DNA of 64,000 bases, from NCBI GenBank assembly GCA_963971575.1, contig OZ020611.1, positions 27,263,279 to 27,327,278 on the forward strand, in the 5' to 3' direction. Positions 7,139 through 54,106 of the stretch are shown here, in pieces. How positions within the stretch are numbered: the first letter of the stretch is position 1; the number at the start of each line of letters is the position of its first letter. The stretch comes from Liopterus haemorrhoidalis (taxonomy: Eukaryota; Arthropoda; Insecta; Coleoptera; Dytiscidae). The translations under genes were made by a program, and so were the position numbers. A model generated the notes under the pieces. That model saw only the letters and a program-made list of their open reading frames with translations, ran no database searches and was not told the DNA's origin.

Positions 7139-7975
7139 CTATTTTCTTGATTTTTGGAGTCTTATATAGGTTGGATAGATTTTGTCTTTATTTCTAGTGT
7201 TGTAGTTATGTACTTGCTCGTGTAATACAAGTTCATTTAAGTTTCTGTGCGCATACAATAGAGAATTATAAATAAAGAGAGAAGGCAGTGTCATAATTTC
7301 CAGTTCAGGGAAACAAATTCTGCAGTCGGTTTCGTAAGAGACTTCGGCCAGAATTCTTACAACGACGAGTTGTAAGGAAAATATTCTTTCTGCCGCAGTA
7401 GAATGTCCCCAGAATAAAATGTCATAGGATGTTTGCAACTGGAACAATGCAAAATAAGTACTGCGAACAATTTTTCTGGAAATTGAGGCCATAAGATTTC
7501 TTAATAGATATACAGTGCTACATAATTTATTGGATAGGGAGCTAGAGTTATGATGCCACTTGGGGTTGAGATGAACACCGAAGAAATTTACGAAACCTGG
7601 GTTGTCAAAATTATGGCTTCTTAATGCAAATAGGAGGTGTTGAGTTTTGCTATCGTTTAAGATAAGGCCGTGTGATGTTTTCCACAGTTTGGCTTTGTTA
7701 ACAACTTCGCTATTTTTACTTATCGTACTTTCAAAGGAATAAGATGTCACTATTCTGTTAGTGTCATCAGCATATATGCTGAATGGAAAGTCGTTTATGT
7801 ATATAATAAATAGTATTGCTGCAAGAATAGACCCTTGTGAAACACCTATCTCGAGTGGAAGATGAGTCGACTTGGAATTGTTTACAGAGACGAATTGTAT
7901 TCTGTTGCTAAGGATGGATTCTATCAAAGAAGAGCTAACTTCATCAAATCTGTATTTTTTTTTTTTATTTTTCAA
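7139..7975 (-). pseudogene. LINE reverse transcriptase fragment
   Basis: The frame runs 8062-7139 (307 codons), but its first ~35 residues read through SINE sequence, so only about 7975-7139 is RT. It shows RFDEVSSSLIESILSNRIQFV, then GVSQGSILAAILFIIYINDF and the catalytic YADD, followed by the C-terminal ILFWGHS / RICFPELEIMTLPSLFIYNSLLYA region typical of Jockey/CR1-group ORF2. The RT fingers (LDLSKAFD) are missing upstream, so this is a truncated, non-functional copy. A second copy of its first ~45 residues is in the left arm on the opposite strand (about 6840-6975). Confidence 0.8.
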
Positions 7976-7984
7976 TGAGAATAA

Positions 7985-8127
7985 TTTTACACAGTGGAAA
8001 CACATGTGTTTTCCGTTGCTAAGATCTTGTGTTCGAATCTCGTACAGGCATGGAATTTTCAAAAATAAGGAATGTCCTGGTTAGTTGTCGAAGCAGAAAA
8101 GACCATTAGAAAAAAAAAAAAAAAAAA
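7985..8127 (+). mobile_element. SINE 3' part (right foldback arm)
   Basis: Box-B-like TTGTGTTCGAATCTC at about 8028, a body ending GAAGCAGAAAAGACCATTAG, and a long A tail at 8108-8126. Counterpart of 6715-6840. Confidence 0.55.
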
Positions 8128-20334: not shown

Positions 20335-21125
20335 ATCTAAAGAAATGGTTGCGACATATCCAGTAGAACCGAAGAAAAAGCGTTCATTTTCTTGGAAGTG
20401 CTTCGCGAACGAACAACTTTTGTGGGTTTCGGCTCATCCTAGAAGACCCAAACAGTCTATTGTTGCTTAGTTTCGGGTTCATATGAATAAATCCAAGTTT
20501 CATCATCTGTAACGATGTTGTATACAGATCTTGCAGTGCCTAGGTTGAATTTTTTTAGCATTCCCTTACATCAATCAACATGAGTCTTTTTTTATCCTTC
20601 GGTCAAATTATGCGGAATCCATCGGGAACAGATCTTTTTCACAGCTAAATGTTCATGCAAAATCGAATGCATTGCAGTGTGCGATACGTCAAAAAATGCC
20701 TCTATCACGGTAAGTCACATGCCGATCTTTTTGAATCATTTTGCGCATAGCATTGATGTTTTTTTGAATCGCAACCGCTTTTGGTCGACCTTCACGATAT
20801 TCATCACTAACGAACGCACGGCCACGACGAAATTCCGCAAACCAATTGTCTTCTCTGATGGTGCTTCATTACCAAAAGATGAACGAAGCGAATATATGCA
20901 TTGTTGTTGAGTTAGGCCTTTACTAAAATCGTTAAGAGTCATCCAACGAAAACCTTCACGAGTAATATCCATTTTTCAAAAACTTGATTTTTTTAAACGG
21001 TCAATTTATAACTGATTTCACAATAACAAATATCAAATTTTACTAATATAGTAATGACACATTTCAATATTGCCATCTAGTGGTCGTTTGTTAAAACATA
21101 CCATAAAAGGTAACTCTCGTATGAG

Positions 21126-28836: not shown

Positions 28837-29477
28837 CAGTGTTGCCAACTCCGTATAATGAAATAATCGTACGCTGTAGCGAAAATTATCGTATTTTCGT
28901 AAAAGTTATCGTACACCCGCGGGACGGGATAGTAGAGTAATAAAATTTTTAAAATTTCATTTTTATTCACTTATCACTACATTTTTATTATAATTTATTA
29001 TTGAAAGGAAATACGTACACAAATTATCTATAGGCTATTTTCAACATTTAGGCGAAACTAAATGGGATAAATTTTGAAAAAATAAATAAATGGGGAATCC
29101 CCGTTAAATGAAATGCAAAACATGTACGTAGTAAGATACGTCCTACGTACCTTATTTAGTAAGGTACAAACTTTGTCCTATATCTTATCAGTTGCGCTGC
29201 TTTTTAGAACTACTTTCTGTAGACGCAGAACAGGGCAAGTTAAGCATTTTCAAAAATCTTTGATTCAAGATAAAATATTGTTTGTTACGGCCTATTCTAG
29301 CTGACAACACTGCTTATAAAACTACCTTAACGTAACCTACCTTAACGTACAAAAACTTATGCTATTCTCACTAAAGGATACAGTATTGTGTATTTGTGCG
29401 AAACAACTGACTAGCCTCCTGACAATCTACTTAAAAGTAGCCGTTCTTGCTACAGAAATATAAATTAACATCTGAAT

Positions 29478-30422
29478 AGGGGATAGGCATGATTTTTTTT
29501 TATTTTTTTATTATATTCCTCTTGTTGTATATAAACATAAAAAACAGTTTTTAATTTTTTTTTTTTTAATTTGAAGGCTTTAAAAAATCAAAAATGTATG
29601 TAGCGCGCGAAAACGACGTGTGACGTCATAATCCTTTCTAACTGACGCATGAGACTACTAGCCAATCCAGCGAACGGTTGTTTATGCAGCGAACATAGTC
29701 GGTTGTGAATTATTTGTTTGTGTAACTTTTATAGGTTATGTAAAGGAGAGTGATTTTAATTAAAATAAAGTTTAATTCTATAAAAACAATTTATACATGT
29801 TTACCGAATTAAATTTTATATTAAAATATGGAAGATCCAGGGCCCCAGTACTTCGAAACATTATCGAAAATATTGTTCAGTACTGATGTGCACAATTAGT
29901 TCAACTAGAAATCCAAAAAAACTATTTATATCATTACCTAATGGCGAAAAACAACAGAAAAGGCGAAATTTGTGGCTGAAAACTATGAGGCGAAATAAAA
30001 CCGATATTTCAGAAAAAAGTAAACTTTATGTTGTGTGCATAAATGCATCAATGTTGGGTAAATTATCACTCTGAGCCCTAACAAAATCTTTATCTGCCAT
30101 TTTAATAGTAAATACGTGAAAAATTGTTTAAAAACAAATACAAAACTCTCGAACAATACAATACACACACGTGTGAAGATTATGTTGTAGCTGTCTGTAT
30201 CTGTGATGTGAAAACCCTATCGTTTGACGTCATACTCAGTCGTTTCTACTCGGCAACCTTCGCCCCGTGCTCGGAATATTTCAAATTTACAATATTTTAA
30301 TTAAAAAATTTGGCTATAATGTTAATTAAAATGTGATTTTTGTTTTGTTAGGTGACATAACTAACATTAACATATCAAAATAATGTAGTTTTAAGGAAAT
30401 ACAAATTTTATGCGTATCCCCT
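29478..30422 (+). mobile_element. 945-bp element present in one arm only
   Basis: Inserted between …CATCTGA and TTCTCG…; the two other copies of the site (36303-36312 and about 40911-40918) are uninterrupted. Termini AGGGGATAGGCAT / ATGCGTATCCCCT match at 12 of 13 positions, and comparison with the empty site gives a 2-bp AT duplication. It contains a THAP-like fragment. It must have arrived after the arms were duplicated, or the empty arms derive from a copy without it. Confidence 0.85.
29829..30072 (+). pseudogene. THAP-like zinc-finger fragment
   Basis: Starts MEDPGPQYFETLSKILFS, then shifts frame into MCTISSTRNPKKLFISLPNG… with NLWLKTMRR and a later VVCINAS. The spacing C…PKKLF.S.P….R..WL..(M)RR…VC resembles the N-terminal half of a THAP domain (C2CH, DNA-binding, found in P-element-type transposases and some host proteins), with the first CxxC and the final CxxHF motif imperfect. 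The protein stops after 62 codons. Similarity is by eye only. Confidence 0.4.
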
Positions 30423-31022
30423 ATTCTCGTATTCTGTCAAAAACTTTTAGGTTATGTCATTTTGACACATGGGAATAATCACATTCTTTTGCATTTTGGA
30501 GTATGAATACTTCATTAGAACCTGGAAATTACAGACTATTAGCGTGTATTACGTATATAAGGAACATACTTACAACTTGTAATAAAATACAATGTTGACA
30601 TTCGTGATTTTTAACGCCGATAAGAAAGAATGTTGTCATTTTTGATAACTGTCTGAGTCACGTGGTTTTGCCCACGTGAGTCTAGTGTCCATCAGACAGT
30701 TGTAGGAAAGGTGGAAGTGGTGAAGGGGGGGCATATATAATGGAATGTTATATGCCATTTTGTCTCTTCAATGTCGTAATTCAAGAAGTATAGAGGTTCC
30801 CTAAGGGGTGGAGACTCAGTAACACGTGCCAAATTTTAATCCACAAGTTTTTGTGAAAATTATTTGAGAAGATAATGCTGGTTCACCTGTGGATTCGCTA
30901 AGCGGAAAAGGCACGTGATACATCATGTTTTGGGAATGCAAAACGCGACTTACGTCGGAATTAGGAGTTTTCTACCCCTAGATGGCAATTGAGTTACGAC
31001 GTTTCGCCACTAAAACACCGAG

Positions 31023-31114
31023 GTATGTTTCTTTTATACAGTATTACCCGCTAATCAGTTTTGAATAATCCAGTGTTCTAATGTAAAGTATTTCTTTGTA
31101 TTTTGTAAATTTAG
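31023..31114 (+). other. 92-bp GT-AG intron in the LTR element
   Basis: Donor GAG|GTATGT and acceptor TTTGTAAATTTAG|TGG. The copy at 36906/36907 joins the flanking bases exactly (ACCGAG-TGGCAAC), showing precise removal. The minus-strand copy retains it at 40216-40307. Intron status is supported directly by comparison of copies. Confidence 0.9.
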
Positions 31115-32054
31115 TGGCAACATGGACGGGCCTAAGTTGAGTATTCTTTCTCGAGCGAGGATCCTGCTTTCGAGATTATACTGTCCCCCACGTGTAAGGG
31201 TTGAAGAGCCGATTTTGGAGCGATCCGTGGAAGATGTAGCGTGAAAATTATTGTATCAATTGAGACCTGTTGCTACAGGGTGTTGCGAGAATTACTGTGT
31301 TTCAGCTGAGTATACTTTGGAAATGTTTGAAATTTTGTAACAGAAGCGACTCTGCCCTATTAACGTATTGGAATTCCCGTTTGGGGATGTTTTTGTGATT
31401 CTTAACGTTAATAGTGTAGGGCTGCGTCTGGTACACCCTTATGAGTTATGGCCATGATTATTAAGTGTGTGTTATTATTTGTACTGTATTATTAGCTGAA
31501 ATGCATTGAGGTTTCTCAAGTTTTGTTGTATCTTGAGATATTTTTGAGTTATTGAGATATGTTTTTGGATTTATTGAGTACGCTGTTGCGTGTACGGGTG
31601 GACTGTGTCGTCACCGTATTATTTTTGGAGGTACAATAATTTTTGTTCACGAATCGCTCATTTTTATTGTTGCCGCGTAATGTAAATTCAGTCTGTCCGT
31701 AAAGTATATTTTCCTTGATAACTGGAGGTTGTGAATTAGCTTTCAAACACGCAGGTTACTCCTTACTTTGAATACTTACTGGTCAAGTATTCGTGTTACT
31801 TGCTGTTCACGTTATCGAGGATCGGGTTTGTATTATTTTGGGAGGAATTAACGTTAACTTCAATCGGGCAGAACCTCAGCCACAAGCATCGTTTTTTTTT
31901 ATTTATTTTTTTTTGACCAGTCTTCCTTAATTTTTTTTTGTCTCGATTTTTTTTTTAAATTTTGATCATTTCCGTTGAGTCAGTGGGTAGGGTGGTGCGT
32001 CATTTTTTTTGGCATCTCGCGGAGATTTTTTTGTTGACGTATCACGGGTTTTTA

Positions 32055-32070
32055 AGAGTAAAAGGGGATA
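32055..32070 (+). other. terminal polypurine tract
   Basis: AGAGTAAAAGGGGATA immediately precedes the LTR start TGTGGAG. Plus-strand DNA synthesis of LTR elements is primed here. It is the same at 39260-39275 on minus. Confidence 0.75.
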
Positions 32071-33143
32071 TGTGGAGTCAGTCTCTTGACAACGATGGAT
32101 TCTTGAATCAACGCGACTTCGTTGCCAATAGACGGATTGGGATTTCAATAGTATTAAGGCGAGAGAATTGTAGTAAAAATTTAAATCGGGTTTTGAACAA
32201 GCGCTGGCTTTCCGATTCTAAAACTCTTCCGGATTTTTCCTAACGGTATTGCCAACCGGAATACCGTTACCATTTTTCAACGTAATTATTCACTGTAGTA
32301 TTTTTTATATTAAGTATAATTTATTCCTGTGCAAAAGTTCACGCAGCCCTAGGGCAGTTGTAGCATAAGTAATCCAATCACATGTTACTGGGTATTTATA
32401 CCGCATTACAAGTAATTCAGTTGTTAGTTTAAATTGTAATTAATTACCGGTTAAAGATTCAGTTGTTTAATTTCCTTTGGCCATTTGTGAGTACTTAGTT
32501 TTCTAAATTTTGGATTTAACTTAGATATTTTGCCCGTAGATTAAATAATTTATTTTTTTTGTATTAACTTTGTCGTACTCCGAACTAAAAAGGGAATATT
32601 CAACTGGTCATTGATCTTGTAATTCTTAATATTTTGGTTATAGATTTTGCGTATTGAGTATTCATTTAGTGAATAATTGATTTTGTTTATAGATTTTGCG
32701 TATTGAATATTCGTTTAGCGGATATTATTTATTTTGTTATTGCTATTTGTTAGTTACTGATTATTTTTGTTAATAAATTTAGTTATTGAGAATTTTGGTG
32801 TTTCTATCACGAGAACTCTATTCCTTCCCCTGGGGTTTTATTTTTCTTCCAGAATTTAGGGCAATAGAAGCGAAGTGACTGGCGCCGTATAAATTTTAGG
32901 CCGCACATAGGTATGGATAATTAAAGGACCACCCTGCATAGTCACATCTACCTCTAGACTGGGCTGGCGGCCTTCTACCTTGCCCTGGACAGCTGATAGC
33001 CGCTGGAGTCACTTCACAGTGGTTACGGAATTCATATTTTTCCCCATTTAGGTTTTTAGCGACCGATCAGAGAGCTGAGCGGACGCTGGCGTATGCCAAC
33101 TATATAACGCTGGAGTCTGGCCGTAATATACGTTATATATTTC
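32071..33143 (+). repeat. LTR copy R1 (1073 bp)
   Basis: Starts TGTGGAGTCAGTCTC, ends CGTTATATATTTC. It carries an 8-T tract (in …AATTTA(T)8G…), as in R4. Inside is a TATTTATA box at 32393 with an initiator-like TCAGTTG about 25 bp downstream and an AATAAA at about 32773. After R1 comes inverted leader, not the PBS. Confidence 0.88.
32393..32423 (+). promoter_or_regulatory. LTR promoter: TATA box plus initiator
   Basis: TATTTATA at 32393-32400 and TCAGTTG at 32417-32423, spacing typical of insect core promoters. The same pair occurs in every LTR copy (for example 45302 and 45326). It would start transcription of the retroelement inside the LTR. Confidence 0.6.
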
Positions 33144-33314
33144 TTGATTCCTTCTCAGCAAACGCCTAAATCCACAAACCTCAAGTCAGAATATGTAACG
33201 TCCTTTTCGGCAAAGGCCCGAAATACATAACGTTCCTTAACAAATCGAGCCCCACATTGCTTAACAAATGTGAGCTCCACGTTAGTTTGGCCCCACGTTG
33301 GGCGCCAGTTGGGC
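33144..33314 (-). repeat. inverted leader fragment between R1 and R2
   Basis: The reverse complement of the PBS and first ~160 bp of leader (34387-34546), ending GGCGCCA at 33307, then GTTGGGC (33308-33314) repeated from just upstream before R2 begins. The 7-bp repeat and the overlap with the R1 end suggest template switching or end-joining. Confidence 0.85.
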
Positions 33315-34386
33315 TGTGGAGTCAGTCTCTTGACAACGATGGATTCTTGAATCAACGCGACTTCGTTGCCAATAGACGGATTGGGATTTCAATAGTATTA
33401 AGGCGAGAGAATTGTAGTAAAAATTTAAATCGGGTTTTGAACAAGCGCTGGCTTTCCGATTCTAAAACTCTTCCGGATTTTTCCTAACGGTATTGCCAAC
33501 CGGAATACCGTTACCATTTTTCAACGTAATTATTCACTGTAGTATTTTTTATATTAAGTATAATTTATTCCTGTGCAAAAGTTCACGCAGCCCTAGGGCA
33601 GTTGTAGCATAAGTAATCCAATCACATGTTACTGGGTATTTATACCGCATTACAAGTAATTCAGTTGTTAGTTTAAATTGTAATTAATTACCGGTTAAAG
33701 ATTCAGTTGTTTAATTTCCTTTGGCCATTTGTGAGTACTTAGTTTTCTAAATTTTGGATTTAACTTAGATATTTTGCCCGTAGATTAAATAATTTATTTT
33801 TTTGTATTAACTTTGTCGTACTCCGAACTAAAAAGGGAATATTCAACTGGTCATTGATCTTGTAATTCTTAATATTTTGGTTATAGATTTTGCGTATTGA
33901 GTATTCATTTAGTGAATAATTGATTTTGTTTATAGATTTTGCGTATTGAATATTCGTTTAGCGGATATTATTTATTTTGTTATTGCTATTTGTTAGTTAC
34001 TGATTATTTTTGTTAATAAATTTAGTTATTGAGAATTTTGGTGTTTCTATCACGAGAACTCTATTCCTTCCCCTGGGGTTTTATTTTTCTTCCAGAATTT
34101 AGGGCAATAGAAGCGAAGTGACTGGCGCCGTATAAATTTTAGGCCGCACATAGGTATGGATAATTAAAGGACCACCCTGCATAGTCACATCTACCTCTAG
34201 ACTGGGCTGGCGGCCTTCTACCTTGCCCTGGACAGCTGATAGCCGCTGGAGTCACTTCACAGTGGTTACGGAATTCATATTTTTCCCCATTTAGGTTTTT
34301 AGCGACCGATCAGAGAGCTGAGCGGACGCTGGCGTATGCCAACTATATAACGCTGGAGTCTGGCCGTAATATACGTTATATATTTC
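33315..34386 (+). repeat. LTR copy R2 (1072 bp), 5' LTR
   Basis: As R1 but with a 7-T tract. Directly followed by the PBS, so it functions as a 5' LTR for 34387 onward. Confidence 0.9.
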
Positions 34387-34404
34387 TGGCGCCCAACGTG
34401 GGGC
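34387..34404 (+). other. primer-binding site, tRNA-Lys type
   Basis: TGGCGCCCAACGTGGGGC is complementary to the 3' end of insect tRNA-Lys(CUU) including CCA. It follows the LTR directly. Equivalent sites: 37992-38009 (+), 42808-42825 (-), 43898-43922 (-, longer match). Confidence 0.85.
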
Positions 34405-36113
34405 CAAACTAACGTGGAGCTCACATTTGTTAAGCAATGTGGGGCTCGATTTGTTAAGGAACGTTATGTATTTCGGGCCTTTGCCGAAAAGGACGTTACA
34501 TATTCTGACTTGAGGTTTGTGGATTTAGGCGTTTGCTGAGAAGGAATCACATATTTTGGATGTCCGAGATGAGAGGGGCCGTTTTTGAGAAGACCATATT
34601 TTTATTTCAGTTTGGAGCTGTTTGGATTTTTTTGTGTAATAGGAAAATATGGGTCTTATATTGATTGGTTGTATTCCTTTTGTTCCTAAACCCAACCCTA
34701 AAGAGTTCTCGTAATATGAAATTTAATTTATTTGTTTGAAAAGTTGATTGGATTACTTTCGCTATGTTATTCGTCGTTTATGTTGCTATGATCTGTTCGG
34801 TATTTGGACGACATATTGTACACATTGTTTAGATTTTGAGTTAGTCTCAGTTGATGAGCTAAATAGTTTTTTGTTGTAAGAGTGAGTAAGTTACTGTGTC
34901 TGAGTTGTAGTAACATTGAGTGAGAGGACTCTAATGTATATCCCTGTGAAAATTTTGTGTTGCATTGTATGGCAACAATTGTTGGTAGAATTGTAATTGC
35001 AACATTGGTTATGTTGAATTATATTGGTGACAAGCCGAGTGACTCGGTTGTCAAATGGGTTTAGTGTCTGGTAGAGACATTTGTATTGGTGAGCCAGTTT
35101 AGGGCGAACCATTGAGATTCACACGGGATTCGCTTAGCGGAAAATTAGTTTACTCATATTTACGGTATTATGTACCGAGCTGGTTTATCCAGGAGAATCA
35201 CTCAACGGTTAGAGTATTGGAGAAGAACAGTAGACTTGCTCCGCGATTTTTGTTGTACAATATTTGATTCCTGGTTAGGAAATATTTTGGACGTGACCTA
35301 GAGTACACGGGTCAGGACCGAATCAGATCTAGTAAGTTGAATATAGAGAAATTCATTGTTGTTAATGCGTTTGTCAGATCGTTTTTGAGTTAAGTAGGAA
35401 TTGTCGTAGCGGACGTGTCAGTTGGTTGTCGTTTTGAGAAATCCCGTATTTTTGGGTGAGATATTTGAGATAGCAAGTTAGAATTGCAGTTATTAGTGCG
35501 TTTGTGAATAACGCTTTGTATTTTGAGTGAAGTTAAGTACGTAGAAGTGAGTGTAGGCAGTTAGGTCGGTACGCGTGTCAGTTAGGCTTTCTTTTTGTGT
35601 GAGATAGATTCCCTTCGTGAATGGTTTAGTTAAGATTATGAGTGCGTTGCATAGATTTAGCTAGTTCGTAGTTGTATAAAGTTAGTTAGGAAATAGTGGA
35701 ATCCAACCTTTTTTTTGTAGGGCGCCGACTGCCGTTAGTTTTTCGTTGGAGCTTATCCGCAGTGTGCGCGACGTCAAACCTACTCGTCCTCCTTGCCTTG
35801 TTGGCAATATTATCACCTCCATGGCCTGTTGGTGATAATACCCGTCTGTGCGCTTTGCACATTAGCACCTTGTCTTCGTTGTCTGCAGCAACTACCTTGC
35901 CTCCCGTGGCTGTTTCCGCGTCTTCGCGAACGCCACCCCTAATTAGTTAGGAATTCCGTGTGTTCCACTATTTAGGATGTAAGTAGGATAGAATTGTAAA
36001 TAGTTTATTGATAGTTTTTTTTTTTTTTGAGCGATTGTTTCGTGCGAATGCAATTTAGTATAAAGATACGGGGTCTTTAGAGACCCGCGTCTCTTTTTAA
36101 GCAAAGGGGGAGT
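34405..36113 (+). mobile_element. 5' internal region of the LTR element, non-coding
   Basis: No gag, protease, RT, RNase H or integrase motif in any frame. The longest frames are 73-84 codons; the 84-codon plus frame at 35696-35950 is hydrophobic (LLVLLALLAILS) but resembles nothing known. A perfect 10-bp hairpin TATTATCACC/GGTGATAATA lies at about 35809-35841. It ends with a second polypurine tract. Nearly identical to 41099-42807 on minus. Size and lack of genes fit a LARD-type non-autonomous LTR element. Confidence 0.75.
36100..36113 (+). other. internal (central) polypurine tract
   Basis: AGCAAAGGGGGAGT, followed by TGTTACGG. It lies in the middle of the element, like central PPTs of some LTR elements. 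The left edge of the whole array (29283) begins with the base right after this tract. Confidence 0.55.
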
Positions 36114-36919
36114 TGTTACGGCCTATTCTAGCTGACAACACTGCTTATAAAACTACCTTAACGTAACCTACCTTAACGTACAAAAACTTATGCTATTCTC
36201 ACTAAAGGATACAGTATTGTGTATTTGTGCGAAACAACTGACTAGCCTCCTGACAATCTACTTAAAAGTAGCCGTTCTTGCTACAGAAATATAAATTAAC
36301 ATCTGAATTCTCGTATTCTGTCAAAAACTTTTAGGTTATGTCATTTTGACACATGGGAATAATCACATTCTTTTGCATTTTGGAGTATGAATACTTCATT
36401 AGAACCTGGAAATTACAGACTATTAGCGTGTATTACGTATATAAGGAACATACTTACAACTTGTAATAAAATACAATGTTGACATTCGTGATTTTTAACG
36501 CCGATAAGAAAGAATGTTGTCATTTTTGATAACTGTCTGAGTCACGTGGTTTTGCCCACGTGAGTCTAGTGTCCATCAGACAGTTGTAGGAAAGGTGGAA
36601 GTGGTGAAGGGGGGGCATATATAATGGAATGTTATATGCCATTTTGTCTCTTCAATGTCGTAATTCAAGAAGTATAGAGGTTCCCTAAGGGGTGGAGACT
36701 CAGTAACACGTGCCAAATTTTAATCCACAAGTTTTTGTGAAAATTATTTGAGAAGATAATGCTGGTTCACCTGTGGATTCGCTAAGCGGAAAAGGCACGT
36801 GATACATCATGTTTTGGGAATGCAAAACGCGACTTACGTCGGAATTAGGAGTTTTCTACCCCTAGATGGCAATTGAGTTACGACGTTTCGCCACTAAAAC
36901 ACCGAGTGGCAACATGGAC
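36114..36919 (+). mobile_element. 3' internal copy lacking intron and PPT (processed copy)
   Basis: Colinear with 29283-31022 (without the 945-bp insertion), then jumps exactly over the 92-bp intron, continues TGGCAACATGGAC, and then goes directly to LTR R3. A further 943 bp, including the terminal PPT, is missing relative to the unspliced copies. The intron loss is precise; the second deletion has no splice-site bases at its ends. Confidence 0.88.
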
Positions 36920-37991
36920 TGTGGAGTCAGTCTCTTGACAACGATGGATTCTTGAATCAACGCGACTTCGTTGCCAATAGACGGATTGGGATTTCAATAG
37001 TATTAAGGCGAGAGAATTGTAGTAAAAATTTAAATCGGGTTTTGAACAAGCGCTGGCTTTCCGATTCTAAAACTCTTCCGGATTTTTCCTAACGGTATTG
37101 CCAACCGGAATACCGTTACCATTTTTCAACGTAATTATTCACTGTAGTATTTTTTATATTAAGTATAATTTATTCCTGTGCAAAAGTTCACGCAGCCCTA
37201 GGGCAGTTGTAGCATAAGTAATCCAATCACATGTTACTGGGTATTTATACCGCATTACAAGTAATTCAGTTGTTAGTTTAAATTGTAATTAATTACCGGT
37301 TAAAGATTCAGTTGTTTAATTTCCTTTGGCCATTTGTGAGTACTTAGTTTTCTAAATTTTGGATTTAACTTAGATATTTTGCCCGTAGATTAAATAATTT
37401 ATTTTTTTGTATTAACTTTGTCGTACTCCGAACTAAAAAGGGAATATTCAACTGGTCATTGATCTTGTAATTCTTAATATTTTGGTTATAGATTTTGCGT
37501 ATTGAGTATTCATTTAGTGAATAATTGATTTTGTTTATAGATTTTGCGTATTGAATATTCGTTTAGCGGATATTATTTATTTTGTTATTGCTATTTGTTA
37601 GTTACTGATTATTTTTGTTAATAAATTTAGTTATTGAGAATTTTGGTGTTTCTATCACGAGAACTCTATTCCTTCCCCTGGGGTTTTATTTTTCTTCCAG
37701 AATTTAGGGCAATAGAAGCGAAGTGACTGGCGCCGTATAAATTTTAGGCCGCACATAGGTATGGATAATTAAAGGACCACCCTGCATAGTCACATCTACC
37801 TCTAGACTGGGCTGGCGGCCTTCTACCTTGCCCTGGACAGCTGATAGCCGCTGGAGTCACTTCACAGTGGTTACGGAATTCATATTTTTCCCCATTTAGG
37901 TTTTTAGCGACCGATCAGAGAGCTGAGCGGACGCTGGCGTATGCCAACTATATAACGCTGGAGTCTGGCCGTAATATACGTTATATATTTC
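36920..37991 (+). repeat. LTR copy R3 (1072 bp)
   Basis: As R2, 7-T tract. Followed by PBS and 194 bp of leader. Confidence 0.9.
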
Positions 37992-38186
37992 TGGCGCCCA
38001 ACGTGGGGCCAAACTAACGTGGAGCTCACATTTGTTAAGCAATGTGGGGCTCGATTTGTTAAGGAACGTTATGTATTTCGGGCCTTTGCCGAAAAGGACG
38101 TTACATATTCTGACTTGAGGTTTGTGGATTTAGGCGTTTGCTGAGAAGGAATCACATATTTTGGATGTCCGAGATGAGAGGGGCCA
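37992..38186 (+). repeat. leader fragment at the centre of the palindrome
   Basis: PBS plus leader as in 34387-34580, cut at GAGAGGGGCC and joined to the inverted LTR R4 with a GCC overlap (leader …GGGGCC; LTR side GCCAGAAAT). Confidence 0.85.
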
Positions 38187-39259
38187 GAAATATATAACGT
38201 ATATTACGGCCAGACTCCAGCGTTATATAGTTGGCATACGCCAGCGTCCGCTCAGCTCTCTGATCGGTCGCTAAAAACCTAAATGGGGAAAAATATGAAT
38301 TCCGTAACCACTGTGAAGTGACTCCAGCGGCTATCAGCTGTCCAGGGCAAGGTAGAAGGCCGCCAGCCCAGTCTAGAGGTAGATGTGACTATGCAGGGTG
38401 GTCCTTTAATTATCCATACCTATGTGCGGCCTAAAATTTATACGGCGCCAGTCACTTCGCTTCTATTGCCCTAAATTCTGGAAGAAAAATAAAACCCCAG
38501 GGGAAGGAATAGAGTTCTCGTGATAGAAACACCAAAATTCTCAATAACTAAATTTATTAACAAAAATAATCAGTAACTAACAAATAGCAATAACAAAATA
38601 AATAATATCCGCTAAACGAATATTCAATACGCAAAATCTATAAACAAAATCAATTATTCACTAAATGAATACTCAATACGCAAAATCTATAACCAAAATA
38701 TTAAGAATTACAAGATCAATGACCAGTTGAATATTCCCTTTTTAGTTCGGAGTACGACAAAGTTAATACAAAAAAAATAAATTATTTAATCTACGGGCAA
38801 AATATCTAAGTTAAATCCAAAATTTAGAAAACTAAGTACTCACAAATGGCCAAAGGAAATTAAACAACTGAATCTTTAACCGGTAATTAATTACAATTTA
38901 AACTAACAACTGAATTACTTGTAATGCGGTATAAATACCCAGTAACATGTGATTGGATTACTTATGCTACAACTGCCCTAGGGCTGCGTGAACTTTTGCA
39001 CAGGAATAAATTATACTTAATATAAAAAATACTACAGTGAATAATTACGTTGAAAAATGGTAACGGTATTCCGGTTGGCAATACCGTTAGGAAAAATCCG
39101 GAAGAGTTTTAGAATCGGAAAGCCAGCGCTTGTTCAAAACCCGATTTAAATTTTTACTACAATTCTCTCGCCTTAATACTATTGAAATCCCAATCCGTCT
39201 ATTGGCAACGAAGTCGCGTTGATTCAAGAATCCATCGTTGTCAAGAGACTGACTCCACA
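38187..39259 (-). repeat. LTR copy R4 (1073 bp), 3' LTR
   Basis: 8-T tract like R1; mirror of R1 (coordinates sum to 71330). Confidence 0.9.
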
Positions 39260-40215
39260 TATCCCCTTTTACTCTTAAAAACCCGTGATACGTCAACAAA
39301 AAAATCTCCGCGAGATGCCAAAAAAAATGACGCACCACCCTACCCACTGACTCAACGGAAATGATCAAAATTTAAAAAAAAAATCGAGACAAAAAAAAAT
39401 TAAGGAAGACTGGTCAAAAAAAAATAAATAAAAAAAACGATGCTTGTGGCTGAGGTTCTGCCCGATTGAAGTTAACGTTAATTCCTCCCAAAATAATACA
39501 AACCCGATCCTCGATAACGTGAACAGCAAGTAACACGAATACTTGACCAGTAAGTATTCAAAGTAAGGAGTAACCTGCGTGTTTGAAAGCTAATTCACAA
39601 CCTCCAGTTATCAAGGAAAATATACTTTACGGACAGACTGAATTTACATTACGCGGCAACAATAAAAATGAGCGATTCGTGAACAAAAATTATTGTACCT
39701 CCAAAAATAATACGGTGACGACACAGTCCACCCGTACACGCAACAGCGTACTCAATAAATCCAAAAACATATCTCAATAACTCAAAAATATCTCAAGATA
39801 CAACAAAACTTGAGAAACCTCAATGCATTTCAGCTAATAATACAGTACAAATAATAACACACACTTAATAATCATGGCCATAACTCATAAGGGTGTACCA
39901 GACGCAGCCCTACACTATTAACGTTAAGAATCACAAAAACATCCCCAAACGGGAATTCCAATACGTTAATAGGGCAGAGTCGCTTCTGTTACAAAATTTC
40001 AAACATTTCCAAAGTATACTCAGCTGAAACACAGTAATTCTCGCAACACCCTGTAGCAACAGGTCTCAATTGATACAATAATTTTCACGCTACATCTTCC
40101 ACGGATCGCTCCAAAATCGGCTCTTCAACCCTTACACGTGGGGGACAGTATAATCTCGAAAGCAGGATCCTCGCTCGAGAAAGAATACTCAACTTAGGCC
40201 CGTCCATGTTGCCAC

Positions 40216-40307
40216 TAAATTTACAAAATACAAAGAAATACTTTACATTAGAACACTGGATTATTCAAAACTGATTAGCGGGTAATACTGTATAAAAGAA
40301 ACATACC
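40216..40307 (-). other. intron retained in the minus-strand copy
   Basis: Mirror of 31023-31114; begins (minus) GTATGT and ends TTTAG. Confidence 0.88.
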
Positions 40308-42825
40308 TCGGTGTTTTAGTGGCGAAACGTCGTAACTCAATTGCCATCTAGGGGTAGAAAACTCCTAATTCCGACGTAAGTCGCGTTTTGCATTCCCAAA
40401 ACATGATGTATCACGTGCCTTTTCCGCTTAGCGAATCCACAGGTGAACCAGCATTATCTTCTCAAATAATTTTCACAAAAACTTGTGGATTAAAATTTGG
40501 CACGTGTTACTGAGTCTCCACCCCTTAGGGAACCTCTATACTTCTTGAATTACGACATTGAAGAGACAAAATGGCATATAACATTCCATTATATATGCCC
40601 CCCCTTCACCACTTCCACCTTTCCTACAACTGTCTGATGGACACTAGACTCACGTGGGCAAAACCACGTGACTCAGACAGTTATCAAAAATGACAACATT
40701 CTTTCTTATCGGCGTTAAAAATCACGAATGTCAACATTGTATTTTATTACAAGTTGTAAGTATGTTCCTTATATACGTAATACACGCTAATAGTCTGTAA
40801 TTTCCAGGTTCTAATGAAGTATTCATACTCCAAAATGCAAAAGAATGTGATTATTCCCATGTGTCAAAATGACATAACCTAAAAGTTTTTGACAGAATAC
40901 GAGAATTCAGATGTTAATTTATATTTCTGTAGCAAGAACGGCTACTTTTAAGTAGATTGTCAGGAGGCTAGTCAGTTGTTTCGCACAAATACACAATACT
41001 GTATCCTTTAGTGAGAATAGCATAAGTTTTTGTACGTTAAGGTAGGTTACGTTAAGGTAGTTTTATAAGCAGTGTTGTCAGCTAGAATAGGCCGTAACAA
41101 CTCCCCCTTTGCTTAAAAAGAGACGCGGGTCTCTAAAGACCCCGTATCTTTATACTAAATTGCATTCGCACGAAACAATCGCTCAAAAAAAAAAAAACTA
41201 TCAATAAACTATTTACAATTCTATCCTACTTACATCCTAAATAGTGGAACACACGGAATTCCTAACTAATTAGGGGTGGCGTTCGCGAAGACGCGGAAAC
41301 AGCCACGGGAGGCAAGGTAGTTGCTGCAGACAACGAAGACAAGGTGCTAATGTGCAAAGCGCACAGACGGGTATTATCACCAACAGGCCATGGAGGTGAT
41401 AATATTGCCAACAAGGCAAGGAGGACGAGTAGGTTTGACGTCGCGCACACTGCGGATAAGCTCCAACGAAAAACTAACGGCAGTCGGCGCCCTACAAAAA
41501 AAAGGTTGGATTCCACTATTTCCTAACTAACTTTATACAACTACGAACTAGCTAAATCTATGCAACGCACTCATAATCTTAACTAAACCATTCACGAAGG
41601 GAATCTATCTCACACAAAAAGAAAGCCTAACTGACACGCGTACCGACCTAACTGCCTACACTCACTTCTACGTACTTAACTTCACTCAAAATACAAAGCG
41701 TTATTCACAAACGCACTAATAACTGCAATTCTAACTTGCTATCTCAAATATCTCACCCAAAAATACGGGATTTCTCAAAACGACAACCAACTGACACGTC
41801 CGCTACGACAATTCCTACTTAACTCAAAAACGATCTGACAAACGCATTAACAACAATGAATTTCTCTATATTCAACTTACTAGATCTGATTCGGTCCTGA
41901 CCCGTGTACTCTAGGTCACGTCCAAAATATTTCCTAACCAGGAATCAAATATTGTACAACAAAAATCGCGGAGCAAGTCTACTGTTCTTCTCCAATACTC
42001 TAACCGTTGAGTGATTCTCCTGGATAAACCAGCTCGGTACATAATACCGTAAATATGAGTAAACTAATTTTCCGCTAAGCGAATCCCGTGTGAATCTCAA
42101 TGGTTCGCCCTAAACTGGCTCACCAATACAAATGTCTCTACCAGACACTAAACCCATTTGACAACCGAGTCACTCGGCTTGTCACCAATATAATTCAACA
42201 TAACCAATGTTGCAATTACAATTCTACCAACAATTGTTGCCATACAATGCAACACAAAATTTTCACAGGGATATACATTAGAGTCCTCTCACTCAATGTT
42301 ACTACAACTCAGACACAGTAACTTACTCACTCTTACAACAAAAAACTATTTAGCTCATCAACTGAGACTAACTCAAAATCTAAACAATGTGTACAATATG
42401 TCGTCCAAATACCGAACAGATCATAGCAACATAAACGACGAATAACATAGCGAAAGTAATCCAATCAACTTTTCAAACAAATAAATTAAATTTCATATTA
42501 CGAGAACTCTTTAGGGTTGGGTTTAGGAACAAAAGGAATACAACCAATCAATATAAGACCCATATTTTCCTATTACACAAAAAAATCCAAACAGCTCCAA
42601 ACTGAAATAAAAATATGGTCTTCTCAAAAACGGCCCCTCTCATCTCGGACATCCAAAATATGTGATTCCTTCTCAGCAAACGCCTAAATCCACAAACCTC
42701 AAGTCAGAATATGTAACGTCCTTTTCGGCAAAGGCCCGAAATACATAACGTTCCTTAACAAATCGAGCCCCACATTGCTTAACAAATGTGAGCTCCACGT
42801 TAGTTTGGCCCCACGTTGGGCGCCA

Positions 42826-43897
42826 GAAATATATAACGTATATTACGGCCAGACTCCAGCGTTATATAGTTGGCATACGCCAGCGTCCGCTCAGCTCTCT
42901 GATCGGTCGCTAAAAACCTAAATGGGGAAAAATATGAATTCCGTAACCACTGTGAAGTGACTCCAGCGGCTATCAGCTGTCCAGGGCAAGGTAGAAGGCC
43001 GCCAGCCCAGTCTAGAGGTAGATGTGACTATGCAGGGTGGTCCTTTAATTATCCATACCTATGTGCGGCCTAAAATTTATACGGCGCCAGTCACTTCGCT
43101 TCTATTGCCCTAAATTCTGGAAGAAAAATAAAACCCCAGGGGAAGGAATAGAGTTCTCGTGATAGAAACACCAAAATTCTCAATAACTAAATTTATTAAC
43201 AAAAATAATCAGTAACTAACAAATAGCAATAACAAAATAAATAATATCCGCTAAACGAATATTCAATACGCAAAATCTATAAACAAAATCAATTATTCAC
43301 TAAATGAATACTCAATACGCAAAATCTATAACCAAAATATTAAGAATTACAAGATCAATGACCAGTTGAATATTCCCTTTTTAGTTCGGAGTACGACAAA
43401 GTTAATACAAAAAAATAAATTATTTAATCTACGGGCAAAATATCTAAGTTAAATCCAAAATTTAGAAAACTAAGTACTCACAAATGGCCAAAGGAAATTA
43501 AACAACTGAATCTTTAACCGGTAATTAATTACAATTTAAACTAACAACTGAATTACTTGTAATGCGGTATAAATACCCAGTAACATGTGATTGGATTACT
43601 TATGCTACAACTGCCCTAGGGCTGCGTGAACTTTTGCACAGGAATAAATTATACTTAATATAAAAAATACTACAGTGAATAATTACGTTGAAAAATGGTA
43701 ACGGTATTCCGGTTGGCAATACCGTTAGGAAAAATCCGGAAGAGTTTTAGAATCGGAAAGCCAGCGCTTGTTCAAAACCCGATTTAAATTTTTACTACAA
43801 TTCTCTCGCCTTAATACTATTGAAATCCCAATCCGTCTATTGGCAACGAAGTCGCGTTGATTCAAGAATCCATCGTTGTCAAGAGACTGACTCCACA
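42826..43897 (-). repeat. LTR copy R5 (1072 bp), 5' LTR
   Basis: 7-T tract like R2; mirror of R2 (sum 77212). Confidence 0.9.
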
Positions 43898-43922
43898 AAT
43901 GTGAGCCCCACGTTGGGCGCCA
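43898..43922 (-). other. short leader with extended tRNA-Lys PBS
   Basis: Reads GAGCCCCACGTTGGGCGCCA on plus, which equals the last 20 nt of tRNA-Lys including CCA. Other leaders diverge after 18 nt. The junction joins R5 to R6. Confidence 0.75.
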
Positions 43923-44975
43923 GAAATATATAACGTATATTACGGCCAGACTCCAGCGTTATATAGTTGGCATACGCCAGCGTCCGCTCAGCTCTCTGAT
44001 CGGTCGCTAAAAACCTAAATGGGGAAAAATATGAATTCCGTAACCACTGTGAAGTGACTCCAGTGGCTATCAGCTGTCCAGGGCAAGGTAGAAGGCCGCC
44101 AGCCCAGTCTAGAGGTAAATGTGACTATGCAGGGTGGTCCTGTAATTATCAATGTCGATGTGCGGCCTAAAATTTATACGGCGCCAGTCACTTCGCTTCT
44201 ATTGCCCTAAATTCTGGAAGAAAAATAAAACCCCAGGGGAAGGAATAGAGTTCTCTTAATAGAAACACCAAAATTCTGAATAACTAAATTTATTAACAAA
44301 AATAATCAGTAACTAACAAATAGCAATAACAAAATAAATAATATCCGCTAAACGAATATTCAATACGCAAAATCTATAACCAAAATCAATTATTCACTAA
44401 ATGAATACTCAATACGCAAAATCTATAACCAAAATATTAAGAATTACAAGATCAATGACCAGTTGAATATTCCCTTTTTAGTTCGGAGTACGACAAAGTT
44501 AATACAAAAAAAATAAATTATTTAATCTACGGGCAAAATATCTACGTTAAATCCAAAATTTTAGAAACTAAGTACTCACGAGTGGCCAAAGGAAATTAAA
44601 CAACTGAATCTTTAACCGGTAATTAATTACAATTTAAACTAACAACTGAATTACTTGTAATGCGGTATAAATACCCAGTAACATGTGATTGGATTACTTA
44701 TGCTACAACTGCCCTAGGGCTGCGTGAACTTTTGCACAGGAATTATATACTTAATATAAAAATACTACAATGATTAATTACGTTGAAAAATGGTAACGGT
44801 ATTCCGGTTGGCAATACCGTTAGGAAAAATCCGGAAGAGGGCTAGAATCGGAAAGCCAGCGCTTTTTCGAAACCCGATTTAAATTTTTACTACAATTCTC
44901 TCGCCTTAATACTATTGAAATCCCAATCCGTCTATTGGCAACGAAGTCGCGTTGATTCAAGAATCCATCGTTGTC
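43923..44975 (-). repeat. LTR copy R6, diverged variant
   Basis: Same LTR with a set of substitutions shared with R7 (for example CATCGACATTGATAATTACA on plus in R7 where R1-R5 have a different version). Truncated by about 18 bp at the LTR start. Confidence 0.88.
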
Positions 44976-44982
44976 TGCAGCA

Positions 44983-46047
44983 TGTGGAGTCAGTCTCTTG
45001 ACAACGATGGATTCTTGAATCAACGCGACTTCGTTGCCAATAGACGGATTGGGATTTCAATAGTATTAAGGCGAGAGAATTGTAGTAAAAATTTAAATCG
45101 GGTTTCGAAAAAGCGCTGGCTTTCCGATTCTAGCCCTCTTCCGGATTTTTCCTAACGGTATTGCCAACCGGAATACCGTTACCATTTTTCAACGTAATTA
45201 ATCATTGTAGTATTTTTATATTAAGTATATAATTCCTGTGCAAAAGTTCACGCAGCCCTAGGGCAGTTGTAGCATAAGTAATCCAATCACATGTTACTGG
45301 GTATTTATACCGCATTACAAGTAATTCAGTTGTTAGTTTAAATTGTAATTAATTACCGGTTAAAGATTCAGTTGTTTAATTTCCTTTGGCCACTCGTGAG
45401 TACTTAGTTTCTAAAATTTTGGATTTAACGTAGATATTTTGCCCGTAGATTAAATAATTTATTTTTTTTGTATTAACTTTGTCGTACTCCGAACTAAAAA
45501 GGGAATATTCAACTGGTCATTGATCTTGTAATTCTTAATATTTTGGTTATAGATTTTGCGTATTGAGTATTCATTTAGTGAATAATTGATTTTGGTTATA
45601 GATTTTGCGTATTGAATATTCGTTTAGCGGATATTATTTATTTTGTTATTGCTATTTGTTAGTTACTGATTATTTTTGTTAATAAATTTAGTTATTCAGA
45701 ATTTTGGTGTTTCTATTAAGAGAACTCTATTCCTTCCCCTGGGGTTTTATTTTTCTTCCAGAATTTAGGGCAATAGAAGCGAAGTGACTGGCGCCGTATA
45801 AATTTTAGGCCGCACATCGACATTGATAATTACAGGACCACCCTGCATAGTCACATTTACCTCTAGACTGGGCTGGCGGCCTTCTACCTTGCCCTGGACA
45901 GCTGATAGCCACTGGAGTCACTTCACAGTGGTTACGGAATTCATATTTTTCCCCATTTAGGTTTTTAGCGACCGATCAGAGAGCTGAGCGGACGCTGGCG
46001 TATGCCAACTATATAACGCTGGAGTCTGGCCGTAATATACGTTATAT
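44983..46047 (+). repeat. LTR copy R7, diverged variant
   Basis: Forms a ~1.05-kb palindrome with R6 around a 24-nt centre (44976-44999). The right end CGTTATA(T) meets hAT host sequence TGTTGTACC; TGTT here matches the four bases before 29283. Confidence 0.88.
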
Positions 46048-46548: not shown

Positions 46549-46700
46549 CGGCCTTGGTAGCGTAGAGGTGGCGCTCCTGCTTCACAAGCCAAAGGTCCCG
46601 GGTTCGAATCCCGCTCAGGGTATGGATATTTGTGAGCCACACTGTAATTGGGACATTTAGTCCTGTTCTGTGGTTTAAAAATATAAAAATAAAATAAAGA
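46549..46700 (+). mobile_element. tRNA-derived SINE
   Basis: Box A region GGTAGCGTAGAGGTGG and box B GGGTTCGAATCCC (46600-46612), then GGGTATGGATATTTGTGAGC and an A-rich tail. Same style as the SINE at 51570 but a different head. Confidence 0.75.
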
Positions 46701-47617
46701 GAAAATTAATTTATCTGTTTTTGTAAAGTTTAATAGTAATTTATTACTATTACACCAATTTTTTGACTCTGCAATTAATTTACTGTAATCTAGTTTGTGA
46801 AAAAATAGATATTACTCGTGAAGGTTTTCGTTGGATGATTTTTTACGATTTTAGTAAAGGCCTAACTCAACAACAATGCATAGATTTGCTTCGTTCAACT
46901 TTTGGTAATGAAGCACCATCAGAAAAGACTGTTTACAATTAGTTAGTAGAATTTCGTCGTGGTCGTGCCTCCGTCAGTGATGAATCTCGTGAAGGTTAAC
47001 CAAAATCGGTTGTGATTCCAGAAAACATCGATGCTGTACGCAAAATGATTGAAGAAGATCGGCATGGGACTTACTGTGAGATAGAGGCATCCTTTGGCAT
47101 ATCGCACACTGCAATACATTCTGCATGAACATTTAGCTGTGAAAAAGATCTATTCCTGATGGATTCAGCATAATTTGACCGAAGCTCAAAAAAAGTCTCG
47201 TGTTGATTGGTGTAAGGGAATGTTAAAAAACTTCAACCTAGGCACAGTAAAATCCGTAAACATCGTTACAGGTGACAAAACTTGGATTTATATATAGGGG
47301 AGATGTGGGGACGGTGGCACAATTGGTACAGTGGAACATTTGAAATATCTTTGAAATATAGAATATTTTCATGTCTGTTTGGGTATATATAGGCCCCTCT
47401 GGTACTGAGAAATTATACTATCCACATTTTGAGTCTATAAATTTAAGTCCTGCCATTTATAATGAAAATGTTGATTTGAGATTGACAAACTAAAGTTTAT
47501 CGTAACAAGAAATTTTTTATTTGAACGACACACAACTAAATTAGTAAGAAAATTTGTATTACATGTTGTAAATTGGTCATTTGTCTACAGTGTAAAGCAA
47601 TTACTAATGTTCTAAAC

Positions 47618-51569: not shown

Positions 51570-51901
51570 CGCCGACCTCAGTAGTGCAGTGGTAGCATCC
51601 CTGCTTCTTGTGCTGAAGGTCCCGGGTTCGAATTCCGGCTAGCGTATGGATATTTGTATTTGTCCTTTTCACCTCATCCTCATTTAAAATAATAAAAAAT
51701 AAATAAAAATTAAAAAAAAGCATCATTTCATAAATATATCACCGCTACCAACCCGGACTAGGTCACCGTGAGAGTTGTAGACCTGAAACTTCACTCTTCG
51801 GAGTGAAAGGCTCGTGCCCAACATAAAAGTAGCAGTACGGTAGTGAAAACTACGGCTCGGTGAGACTATTGTGGGACGTTTATGGGCTGAAGATGATGAT
51901 G
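51570..51901 (+). mobile_element. complete tRNA-derived SINE with 12-bp TSD
   Basis: Head with box A (CAGTAGTGCAGTGGTAGC) and box B (GGGTTCGAATTCC), GCGTATGGATATTTGTATTTG, a GC-richer body (GTGAGAGTTGTAGACCTGAA, CTTCGGAGTGAAAGG), and a (GAT)n tail. Exact TSD ATAATAGGGATG at 51558-51569 and 51902-51913. Confidence 0.9.
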
Positions 51902-52966: not shown

Positions 52967-54106
52967 TACGAGGGCTATCTTTTAAGTTTATGCAAAAACT
53001 AAGAAGGAAAAAAATTTTTTTGGAACAACTGTTTTGTTGATGTTCAAAATATTCGCCTTTGAGATTTGTACACTTTTGCCTGCGTTCAAACCAATTCTCG
53101 AAACATTTTTTCCATTCTGAAGTTGGTATCTCAAAAACATAGTTTCAAAAACAAGATTTCAACAGTTCTTGAGGTGTGAAAATCGCTGTCCACTCACTTT
53201 TTGTTTGACATTAGGGAACAAAAATAAGTTGTTAGGGGATAAATCAGGTGAATACGGGCAATGAGTCTTTAATTCGATGTTTTTCTCCTTCAAATAATCA
53301 ATTGTTCTCCGATCCTCCAAAGGAATGGTTGTGACATGTCCAGTACAACCGAAAAAACAAGCGATCAGTTTCTTGGAAATGCTTCGTGAACGAACAACTT
53401 TTGTGGGTTCCGGTTCATCTTAGTAGACCCAAACAGTGGATAGTTGCGTAGGTCCGGTATATGGATAAATCCAAGTTTCGTCACCTCTAACGATGTTGTA
53501 TACGGATTTTGCAGTACCTAGGTTGATTTTTTTAACATTTGCTTGCACCAATCAACACGAGCCTTTTTTTGAGCTTCGGTCAAATTATGCGGAATCCATC
53601 TTTTTCGGGAACAGATCTATTTCACAGCTAAATGTTCATGCAAAATCTAATGTATTGCAGGCTGCGATATGCCAAAGGATGCCTCTATCTCACGGTAAGT
53701 CACATGCCGATCTACTTCAATCATTTTGCGCACAGTATCGATATTTTTTTGAATCACAACAGATTTTGGTTGATCTTCACGAGATTCACCACTGACGGAT
53801 GCACGATCACGACCAAATTCTGCAAACCAAAAACCAATTGTAAACAGTATTTTCTGATGACGCTTCATTAACAAAAGTTGAACGAAGCGAATCTAGGCAT
53901 TGTTGGTGAGTTAGGCCTTTACTAAAATCATCCAACGAAATCCTTCACGAGTAATATTAATTTATTACAAACTTGTGTTCTTTTAAACGCTCACTGTCCT
54001 CTACTCGGTCAATTTATAAGCTGACACTGATTTCACAATAACAAATGTCAAATTTTACGAATATAGTAATGACACATTTCAATATTGCCATCTAGTGGTC
54101 GTTCAT
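52967..54106 (-). pseudogene. mariner transposase copy C, nearly full length
   Basis: Minus-strand mariner with its 3' inverted terminus at 52967 (TACGAGGGCTATCTTTTAAG on plus), matching the 5' terminus of copy A. A piece in frame at 53874-53647 reads AEFGRDRASVSGESREDQPKSVVIQKNIDTVRKMIEVDRHVTYREIEASFGIS, in two halves the linker and second helix-turn-helix. The catalytic Asp regions are recognisable but the frame is broken by indels and a duplicated ACCAAAAACCAAT stretch. No element interrupts it. The 5' terminus is replaced at about 54106 by the following repeat. Confidence 0.78.

Follow-up and report, generated by a model that had tools for sequence, protein, structure and literature searches.

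A multi-piece LTR retrotransposon array in the beetle Liopterus haemorrhoidalis and its probable origin from captured cDNA

Introduction

Non-autonomous LTR retrotransposons of the LARD/TRIM type possess LTRs, a primer binding site (PBS) and a polypurine tract (PPT), and lack coding capacity. A central polypurine start is reportedly a special point in the cDNA of Ty1, to go by the title of the 2006 work of Garfinkel on central-flap circles and autointegration.

Reverse-transcribed DNA may also enter chromosomes through break repair. In yeast, captured Ty1 pieces show a hotspot at the 3' LTR and, in cells without Nuc1, increase most outside the LTR, particularly from the PBS to PPT2; nearly 4,000 of about 33,000 insertions combine two to four fragments, mostly mitochondrial (PMC10802722, in its account of captured fragments). 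For mouse zygotes, a single break that had taken up several pieces of retrotransposons, with microhomology of 1-5 bp, has been described, as has the capture of spliced mRNA (PMC4516963, in its treatment of repair products). For HIV-1, the part of PMC5618025 concerned with cDNA ends reports that the last tRNA ribonucleotide remains on the U5 end, and that unintegrated two-LTR junctions may have PBS sequence after U5, or an insert of 112 nt of gag.

The array described here resembles Ty1 capture, as far as the account in PMC10802722 extends, in consisting of LTR element fragments, in what may be cDNA-only bases at its LTR ends, in its PBS and central PPT landmarks and in combining several fragments; however, the yeast breaks were experimentally induced, whereas the array is nearly 17 kb long, is apparently natural and includes one complete element and inverted pieces. 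With the mouse products presented in PMC4516963 it shares multiple LTR retrotransposon pieces and short microhomology joins, and spliced RNA was captured there, but those retrotransposons were truncated at both ends and the breaks were made by Cas9. Its joins of U5, primer-site or internal insert, and U3 are akin to those of HIV-1 two-LTR circles, although the circles treated in PMC5618025 are unintegrated, while the array joins lie within assembled chromosome sequence and one insert is inverted.

Results

Layout of the array

The window, a 64-kb stretch of Liopterus haemorrhoidalis contig OZ020611.1, contains an array of nearly 17 kb (29283..46047) made of seven pieces, S0 to S6, of one LTR retrotransposon family in both orientations. 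Direct and inverted repeat searches and self-BLAST reproduced the layout described in an earlier note, namely seven LTR copies in the order +,+,+,-,-,-,+ with joins that agree within a few bases.

In element coordinates (e), S0 (29283..33144, +) comprises the 3' half and 3' LTR (e2799-e5712; LTR 32071-33144, +), begins with the base following the trailing AGT of a second polypurine tract and ends in U5 plus one T. S1 (33145..33308, -) is the 164-bp inverted leader (e1235-e1072) that the earlier note saw as a link, one end of which is the LTR/primer-site edge. S2 (33315..36906, +) spans e1-e3591, with 5' LTR (33315-34386, +), primer site, leader and second PPT, so that, as had been claimed, the element's 3' part precedes its 5' part in the left half. 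S3 (36920..38185, +) covers e1-e1266, with an LTR (36920-37991, +), the primer site and the start of the leader. The right arm is indeed canonical on the minus strand: S4 (38186..43897, -) is a complete element (e1-e5712), the only one in the array, with LTRs at 38186-39259 and 42826-43897 (both -). S5 (43923..44975, -; e18-e1072) and S6 (44983..46047, +; e1-e1066) are LTRs. The earlier count of two 5' and three 3' internal regions holds for the complete 5' regions of S2 and S4 but omits a 194-nt 5' stub in S3, and its three 3' regions are two complete (S0, S4) and one partial (S2). Self-BLAST of the window found no further copies of the element, and no array flank duplicated inside the array in matches of at least 60 bp. 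In a homologous-protein search that served to place the host, at least 120 hits were listed, and those with an organism in their name are from insects.

Over 7,937 aligned bases, pieces of the main LTR type are free of substitutions relative to S4; this holds for S0 and for S2 individually, S2 having one difference in T-run length. The LTRs of S5 and S6 carry 25 substitutions relative to the S4 LTR and none relative to each other over their common length, and derive from a second, diverged source. These two pieces form a 1051-nt perfect inverted repeat, yet an LTR end and primer site present in S5 are absent from S6, and 17 nt of S6 are absent from S5. Matches to MIR8643 and mir-549 at their centre fell below the gathering score and lie on a perfect hairpin; we do not believe them. 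A T-run near e483 consists of 7 Ts in each of the three 5' LTRs (S2, S3, S4), whereas the two 3' LTRs (S0, S4) have 8, as do S5 and S6; this run is the one difference within the S4 LTR pair. The description of a palindromic array of a single element is therefore correct as to the two orientations, but the arms are not mirror copies, and S5 and S6 bring in LTRs of the diverged source.

Features of the element

S4 has the hallmarks of an LTR retrotransposon: LTRs (e1-1072 and e4639-5712), a PBS by the 5' LTR and a PPT by the 3' LTR. The PBS, TGGCGCCCAACGTGGGGC (34387..34404, +, in S2), is identical in its letters to published tRNA-Lys1,2 sites (18 nt; 17 nt), a comparison with published PBS sequences rather than with the host's tRNA. 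A candidate tRNA-Lys gene in the window (51575) was considered as a test of the PBS and set aside, as it looks like a tRNA-derived repeat and, by eye, its 3' end mismatches the PBS.

PPT1, the 3' polypurine tract (32057..32070, +), lies directly before the S0 LTR, and a second, internal tract, PPT2 (AAAGGGGG followed by AGT, e2788-e2798), occurs at 36103..36113 (+). The pattern TTTTTAAG-N(0-4)-AAAGGGG has exactly these two sites in the element and four matches in the window, two copies per site; 100 shuffles gave none. S0 begins 3 nt past the G run of PPT2, the same spacing as that from PPT1 to the LTR. We make no claim for a second LTR beginning at TGTTACGG after PPT2, a candidate for which no partner copy was found.

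The earlier description of the element as non-coding is upheld: of 39 stop-to-stop pieces with a length of 48 aa or more, taken from both strands of the full element, none reached the curated cut-off of any Pfam family (best E-value 0.011). The element is a non-autonomous LTR retrotransposon without genes; it resembles the LARD/TRIM type in its LTRs, PBS, PPT and absence of coding, and differs by the second internal PPT and a putative intron. Two patterns of 24-28 nt (LTR start; PBS plus leader) had no viral-contig match, a result that is uninformative for an insect-like element.

Differences between copies

A 945-bp insertion in S0 (29478..30422, ends AGGGGATA/TATCCCCT) is absent from S2 and S4; it shows an apparent 2-bp AT duplication and a short THAP-domain ORF (THAP E=3.6e-5). 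S0 and S4 also carry a 92-nt putative intron with GT-AG ends (GAG/GTATGT...TTTAG/TGG; 31023..31114, +, in S0, and 40215..40306, -, in S4, the latter placed via element coordinates) that S2 lacks. Its GC content is 26% vs 46-47% in the flanks, and 9.4% of element windows are equally AT-rich. When microhomology deletions were modelled in the element, 908 of 127205 (0.7%) could be placed as GT-AG, and 39 (0.03%) showed strict splice signals. The loss in S2 has GT-AG ends, yet a 2-nt AG microhomology also permits a repair reading. Just beyond S2, 13 nt (36907..36919, +) equal the sequence immediately past the putative intron, the match being 15 nt with AG included; they may be either a spliced cDNA end or templated filler. 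Since the stretch is missing from S2 and kept in S0, a common template for these two pieces would require the 13 nt to be filler.

Joins and segment ends

The short overlaps reported earlier are present, GTTGGGC occurring twice within 33297-33314 and GCC being common at 38183-38185. The joins show short microhomology or templated filler, as in end joining, with two fillers matching beyond chance and a third not. The latter, TTGGGC (33309..33314), repeats 7 nt nearby when the preceding G is included, but 13239 of 20000 random fillers did equally well or better. AATGTGA (43898..43904) forms with its flanks a 12-nt antisense match to the leader (43895-43906), equalled by 74 of 20000 random fillers; a 10-nt counterpart exists in the window outside the array. 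When 8 nt of S5 are added to TGCAGCA (44976..44982), the resulting 15 nt (44968-44982) agree with e2562-e2576 in the element interior, a match equalled by 5 of 20000 random fillers. Beside the S5 LTR, a copy of the primer binding site (43905..43922, -) extends for exactly 18 nt before departing from the element.

Nine of the 14 segment ends lie at most 1 nt from a reverse-transcription landmark (binomial P = 4e-20 for uniform ends); the other five fit none. The 17 landmark positions, picked after the data had been seen, represent the TG at which U3 starts, the end of U5, the edge of the primer site, the point where its 18-nt copy stops, and PPT2. Both intact U5 joins (S0, S4) have one T beyond the LTR/primer-site edge; it recalls the tRNA ribonucleotide left on the U5 cDNA end of HIV-1 (PMC5618025), but may simply be part of the LTR. 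No integrase signature was found at the array: its outer ends have no 4-6 bp target-site duplication flush with the LTR ends, where the identity is GTT (3 nt) only, and TTGT is common to both ends at a distance of 1 nt from each. Inspection of the join contexts revealed no matching flanks around S4.

Discussion

The segment map, the lack of substitutions between the main pieces, the position of ends at landmarks and the two templated fillers argue for a probable origin in which several cDNA molecules or intermediates of one non-autonomous LTR element, together with LTRs of a sister copy, were end-joined and captured at a break without integrase. Reverse-transcription products of the element, some of them unfinished, would have existed as extrachromosomal molecules, to which the sister-copy LTRs were added. 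The pieces would have been linked end to end by microhomology-mediated, templated joining, a pattern ascribed to DNA polymerase theta, which may have acted here, and a chromosome break in the germline would have taken them up. S0-S1-S2 may represent a two-LTR circle, its 3' LTR joined to its 5' LTR via a 170-bp insert, that opened at the central plus-strand start (PPT2); such an opening would place the 3' half before the 5' half and leave e2799-e3591 covered by both. Among the origins entertained in the earlier note, this joining of cDNA products before or during genome entry is the best supported; a template switch, which the note also raised, may account for single joins.

The T-run split speaks against this origin: complete reverse transcription is expected to leave the two LTRs of a molecule identical, and, barring a run-length error, the runs of 7 in 5' and 8 in 3' LTRs suggest that one DNA molecule was copied. 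They favour a DNA-level rearrangement, in which, after insertion, template switching during replication or cycles of breakage and fusion duplicated and inverted an integrated element along with its neighbour, as does the perfect S5/S6 inverted repeat; the templated fillers are compatible with replication switching too. We nevertheless regard this history as unlikely, given that no array flank is duplicated within the array in matches of at least 60 bp, that most ends fall at LTR, primer-site or PPT2 landmarks, that S5 and S6 each carry sequence missing from the other, and that the intron-like stretch is missing from S2. The difference between the arms at the putative intron and the position of ends at landmarks weigh against the later simple inverted duplication raised by the earlier note, even though the T-runs speak for DNA-level copying. 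We also rejected a simple palindrome or read-through artefact because copies carry sequence their counterparts lack: S5 and S6 have private stretches, S2 is without the stretch of S0 and S4, and S4 is without the S0 insertion.

Assembly errors usually fuse long identical overlaps. Stretches of more than 1 kb do recur identically several times here and T-run lengths vary among copies, so that copies from separate places, or chimeric molecules, might have been wrongly combined; yet the joins are 0-8 nt with templated filler, and amplification chimeras are not expected to favour reverse-transcription landmarks. An assembly or library artefact is thus quite improbable as the source of the short joins, although the order of segments with more than 1 kb of identical sequence in common could reflect mis-assembly. 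Integrase-driven self-integration of cDNA followed by capture, also proposed in the earlier note, would account for the U3 TG end that meets an interior position (S2/S3) and the U5 ends that meet inverted leader at e1235 and e1266. It is very unlikely in our judgement, as the U5 ends keep an additional base, three joins contain filler, and inspection of the join contexts found neither a U3 and U5 join pair at interior sites 4-6 nt apart nor paired processed LTR ends with a target duplication inside the element. In this the array is unlike Ty1 autointegration (Garfinkel 2006), whose signs were not found.

Retrotransposon cDNA capture is already known in yeast and mouse, and the array looks like an unusual natural variant of it. 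The known cases, as presented in PMC4516963 and PMC10802722, concern induced breaks, whereas the array is apparently natural and multi-piece; readable ends in such an array would expose several steps of reverse transcription, and the repair pathway, at one locus. More tentatively, and with some doubt on our part, the locus might be a natural, inherited snapshot of reverse-transcription intermediates, in which templated end joining sealed together plus-strand pieces from the central PPT, an LTR that kept its 18-nt tRNA copy, a minus-strand leader with its end at the primer site, and a two-LTR circle that had opened at the central PPT with an overlap of ~800 nt. If so, a gene-less insect element would use a central plus-strand start, and one event would have taken in both spliced and unspliced templates. 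For Arabidopsis, hairpins formed by the LTRs of nested or tandem insertions have been discussed as triggers of silencing (PMC11624286, in its remarks on such insertions); judging from its arrangement, the inverted LTRs of the array could likewise yield hairpin RNA that silences the family.

Organization of the array

The array (29283-46047) is described here in element coordinates, in which e1 is position 43897, where the complete minus-strand copy begins, and e5712 corresponds to 38186. From left to right, its seven pieces run from S0 (e2799-e5712, plus), S1 (e1235-e1072, inverted), six filler bases (33309-33314), S2 (e1-e3591 with a further 13 nt, plus) and S3 (e1-e1266, plus) to the complete element S4 (e5712-e1, minus), seven filler bases (43898-43904), S5 (18 nt of primer site, then LTR e1072-e18, minus), a second seven-base filler (44976-44982) and S6 (LTR e1-e1066, plus). 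The order of these segments is less certain than their joins, because identical stretches exceeding 1 kb recur.

The LTR, beginning TGTGGAG, is approximately 1,072 bp long and is preceded by a 3' polypurine tract; another tract, matching it in composition (PPT2), lies at e2788-e2798. The primer site reads TGGCGCCCAACGTGGGGC, the letters printed for a tRNA-Lys1,2 primer site in an excerpt of PMC1084362, while its first 17 nt are those of the human foamy virus site in an excerpt of PMC3386198. Judged from the letters, this match suggests which tRNA primes, rather than kinship of the element with these viruses. No Pfam family reached the cut-off in any of the 39 open pieces of at least 48 aa, nor in a 40-codon frame behind a putative intron.

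Relative to S4, segments S0, S1, S2 and S3 showed no substitutions across the 7,937 base pairs aligned, so that their divergence is at most 0.04% (95% upper limit); length differences were confined to two T-runs. S5 and S6 differ from the S4 LTR at 25 positions common to both, and from one another nowhere across their shared length.

Segment ends, joins and putative splicing

We set 14 segment ends against 17 positions, namely landmarks fixed by reverse transcription ±1 nt. Counting from the segment map and junction contexts, nine matched: the left end of S0 (PPT2), the right end of S0 and 3' end of S4 (U5 plus T), the right end of S1 (LTR/primer-site edge), the 5' ends of S2, S3, S4 and S6 (U3 TG) and the 3' end of S5 (18 nt of primer site). 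No landmark coincided with the remaining five, namely S1 e1235, the far end of S2, S3 e1266, S5 e18 and S6 e1066. Because the landmark list was compiled once the map was known, the probability computed for nine matches in 14 has descriptive value only. With the six LTR outer ends excluded, three of eight remaining ends lay on landmarks (P = 2e-7).

Two fillers extend to longer matches within the element: 44976-44982 to 15 nt (equalled by 5 of 20000 random fillers) and 43898-43904 to 12 nt (74 of 20000), against matches of 8 and 10 nt, respectively, in the window outside the array. Filler 33309-33314 is unremarkable, 13239 of 20000 random fillers being as good. Templated insertions of this type are described, in an excerpt of PMC2895639, as frequent in Drosophila alternative end joining, with a large share due to Pol theta. 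At the outer ends of the array GTT is shared flush and TTGT one base off; no clear 4-6 bp duplication was found there.

The putative intron measures 92 nt, opens with GTATGT, closes with TTTAG and lies between GC-richer flanks. It is present in S0 and S4, and an ATG follows seven bases past it; 9.4% of same-sized element windows are equally AT-rich. S2 lacks precisely these 92 nt and then continues for 13 nt up to the S3 join. Loss via spliced RNA is the simpler reading, but the 13 nt may instead be templated filler, since the flanks of the 92-nt stretch have AG in common.

Neighbouring features

Within S0, and only there, lies a 945-bp insertion (29478-30422; ends AGGGGATA/TATCCCCT, apparent AT duplication) containing a short THAP-domain frame (29784-30071); it therefore arrived after the array or along with S0's template. 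MIR8643 and mir-549 matches at the S5/S6 centre (44908-45067), below gathering score, most likely stem from the near-perfect hairpin.

Elsewhere, a tandem array of 7.5 141-bp units (163-1222) accounts for a long open frame at 151-996. Two reverse transcriptase frames (RVT_1) occupy the minus strand at 4447-6024 and 7142-8080, the former with relatives of non-LTR type. Of the 120 matches listed for it, most have no organism in their name; those named include Callosobruchus, Homalodisca, Graphocephala and Cryptotermes, in keeping with an insect host. Two tRNA-like stretches in similar surroundings (46551-46622 and 51575-51646) are probably members of a SINE family of tRNA origin, not genes. A 0.5-kb repeat, presumably mariner transposase by its appearance, occurs at 46787-47296 and, with 85-86% identity to that copy, at 20487-20989 and 53458-53973.

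Interpretation

In the permuted left half, S0 followed by S2 amounts to a 3' LTR linked to a 5' LTR via a 170-bp insert, a join resembling the two-LTR circles with inserts in an excerpt of PMC5618025. This unit is bounded by PPT2 on one side and, on the other, by a site some 800 nt past it, the arrangement to be expected if two plus strands had overlapped at a central start. We infer that S0-S2 may be a two-LTR circle with a central plus-strand start; however, this sits badly with a spliced S2 and an unspliced S0, unless the 13 nt are filler.

The segment ends on landmarks favour reverse transcription as the source of the pieces, and the templated fillers favour end joining. One T-run speaks against independent cDNAs, being T7 in 5' LTRs and T8 in 3' LTRs; this pattern suggests a common DNA ancestry of the copies instead. 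In the open-licence literature covered (search listings and excerpts of PMC1084362, PMC3386198, PMC4516963, PMC10802722, PMC4751563, PMC12312487, PMC11624286, PMC2895639 and PMC5618025), we came across no account of a comparable LTR-element array in nature; an excerpt of PMC10802722 does mention mitochondrial DNA insertions, likewise natural, that consist of several fragments and in some cases contain Ty pieces.
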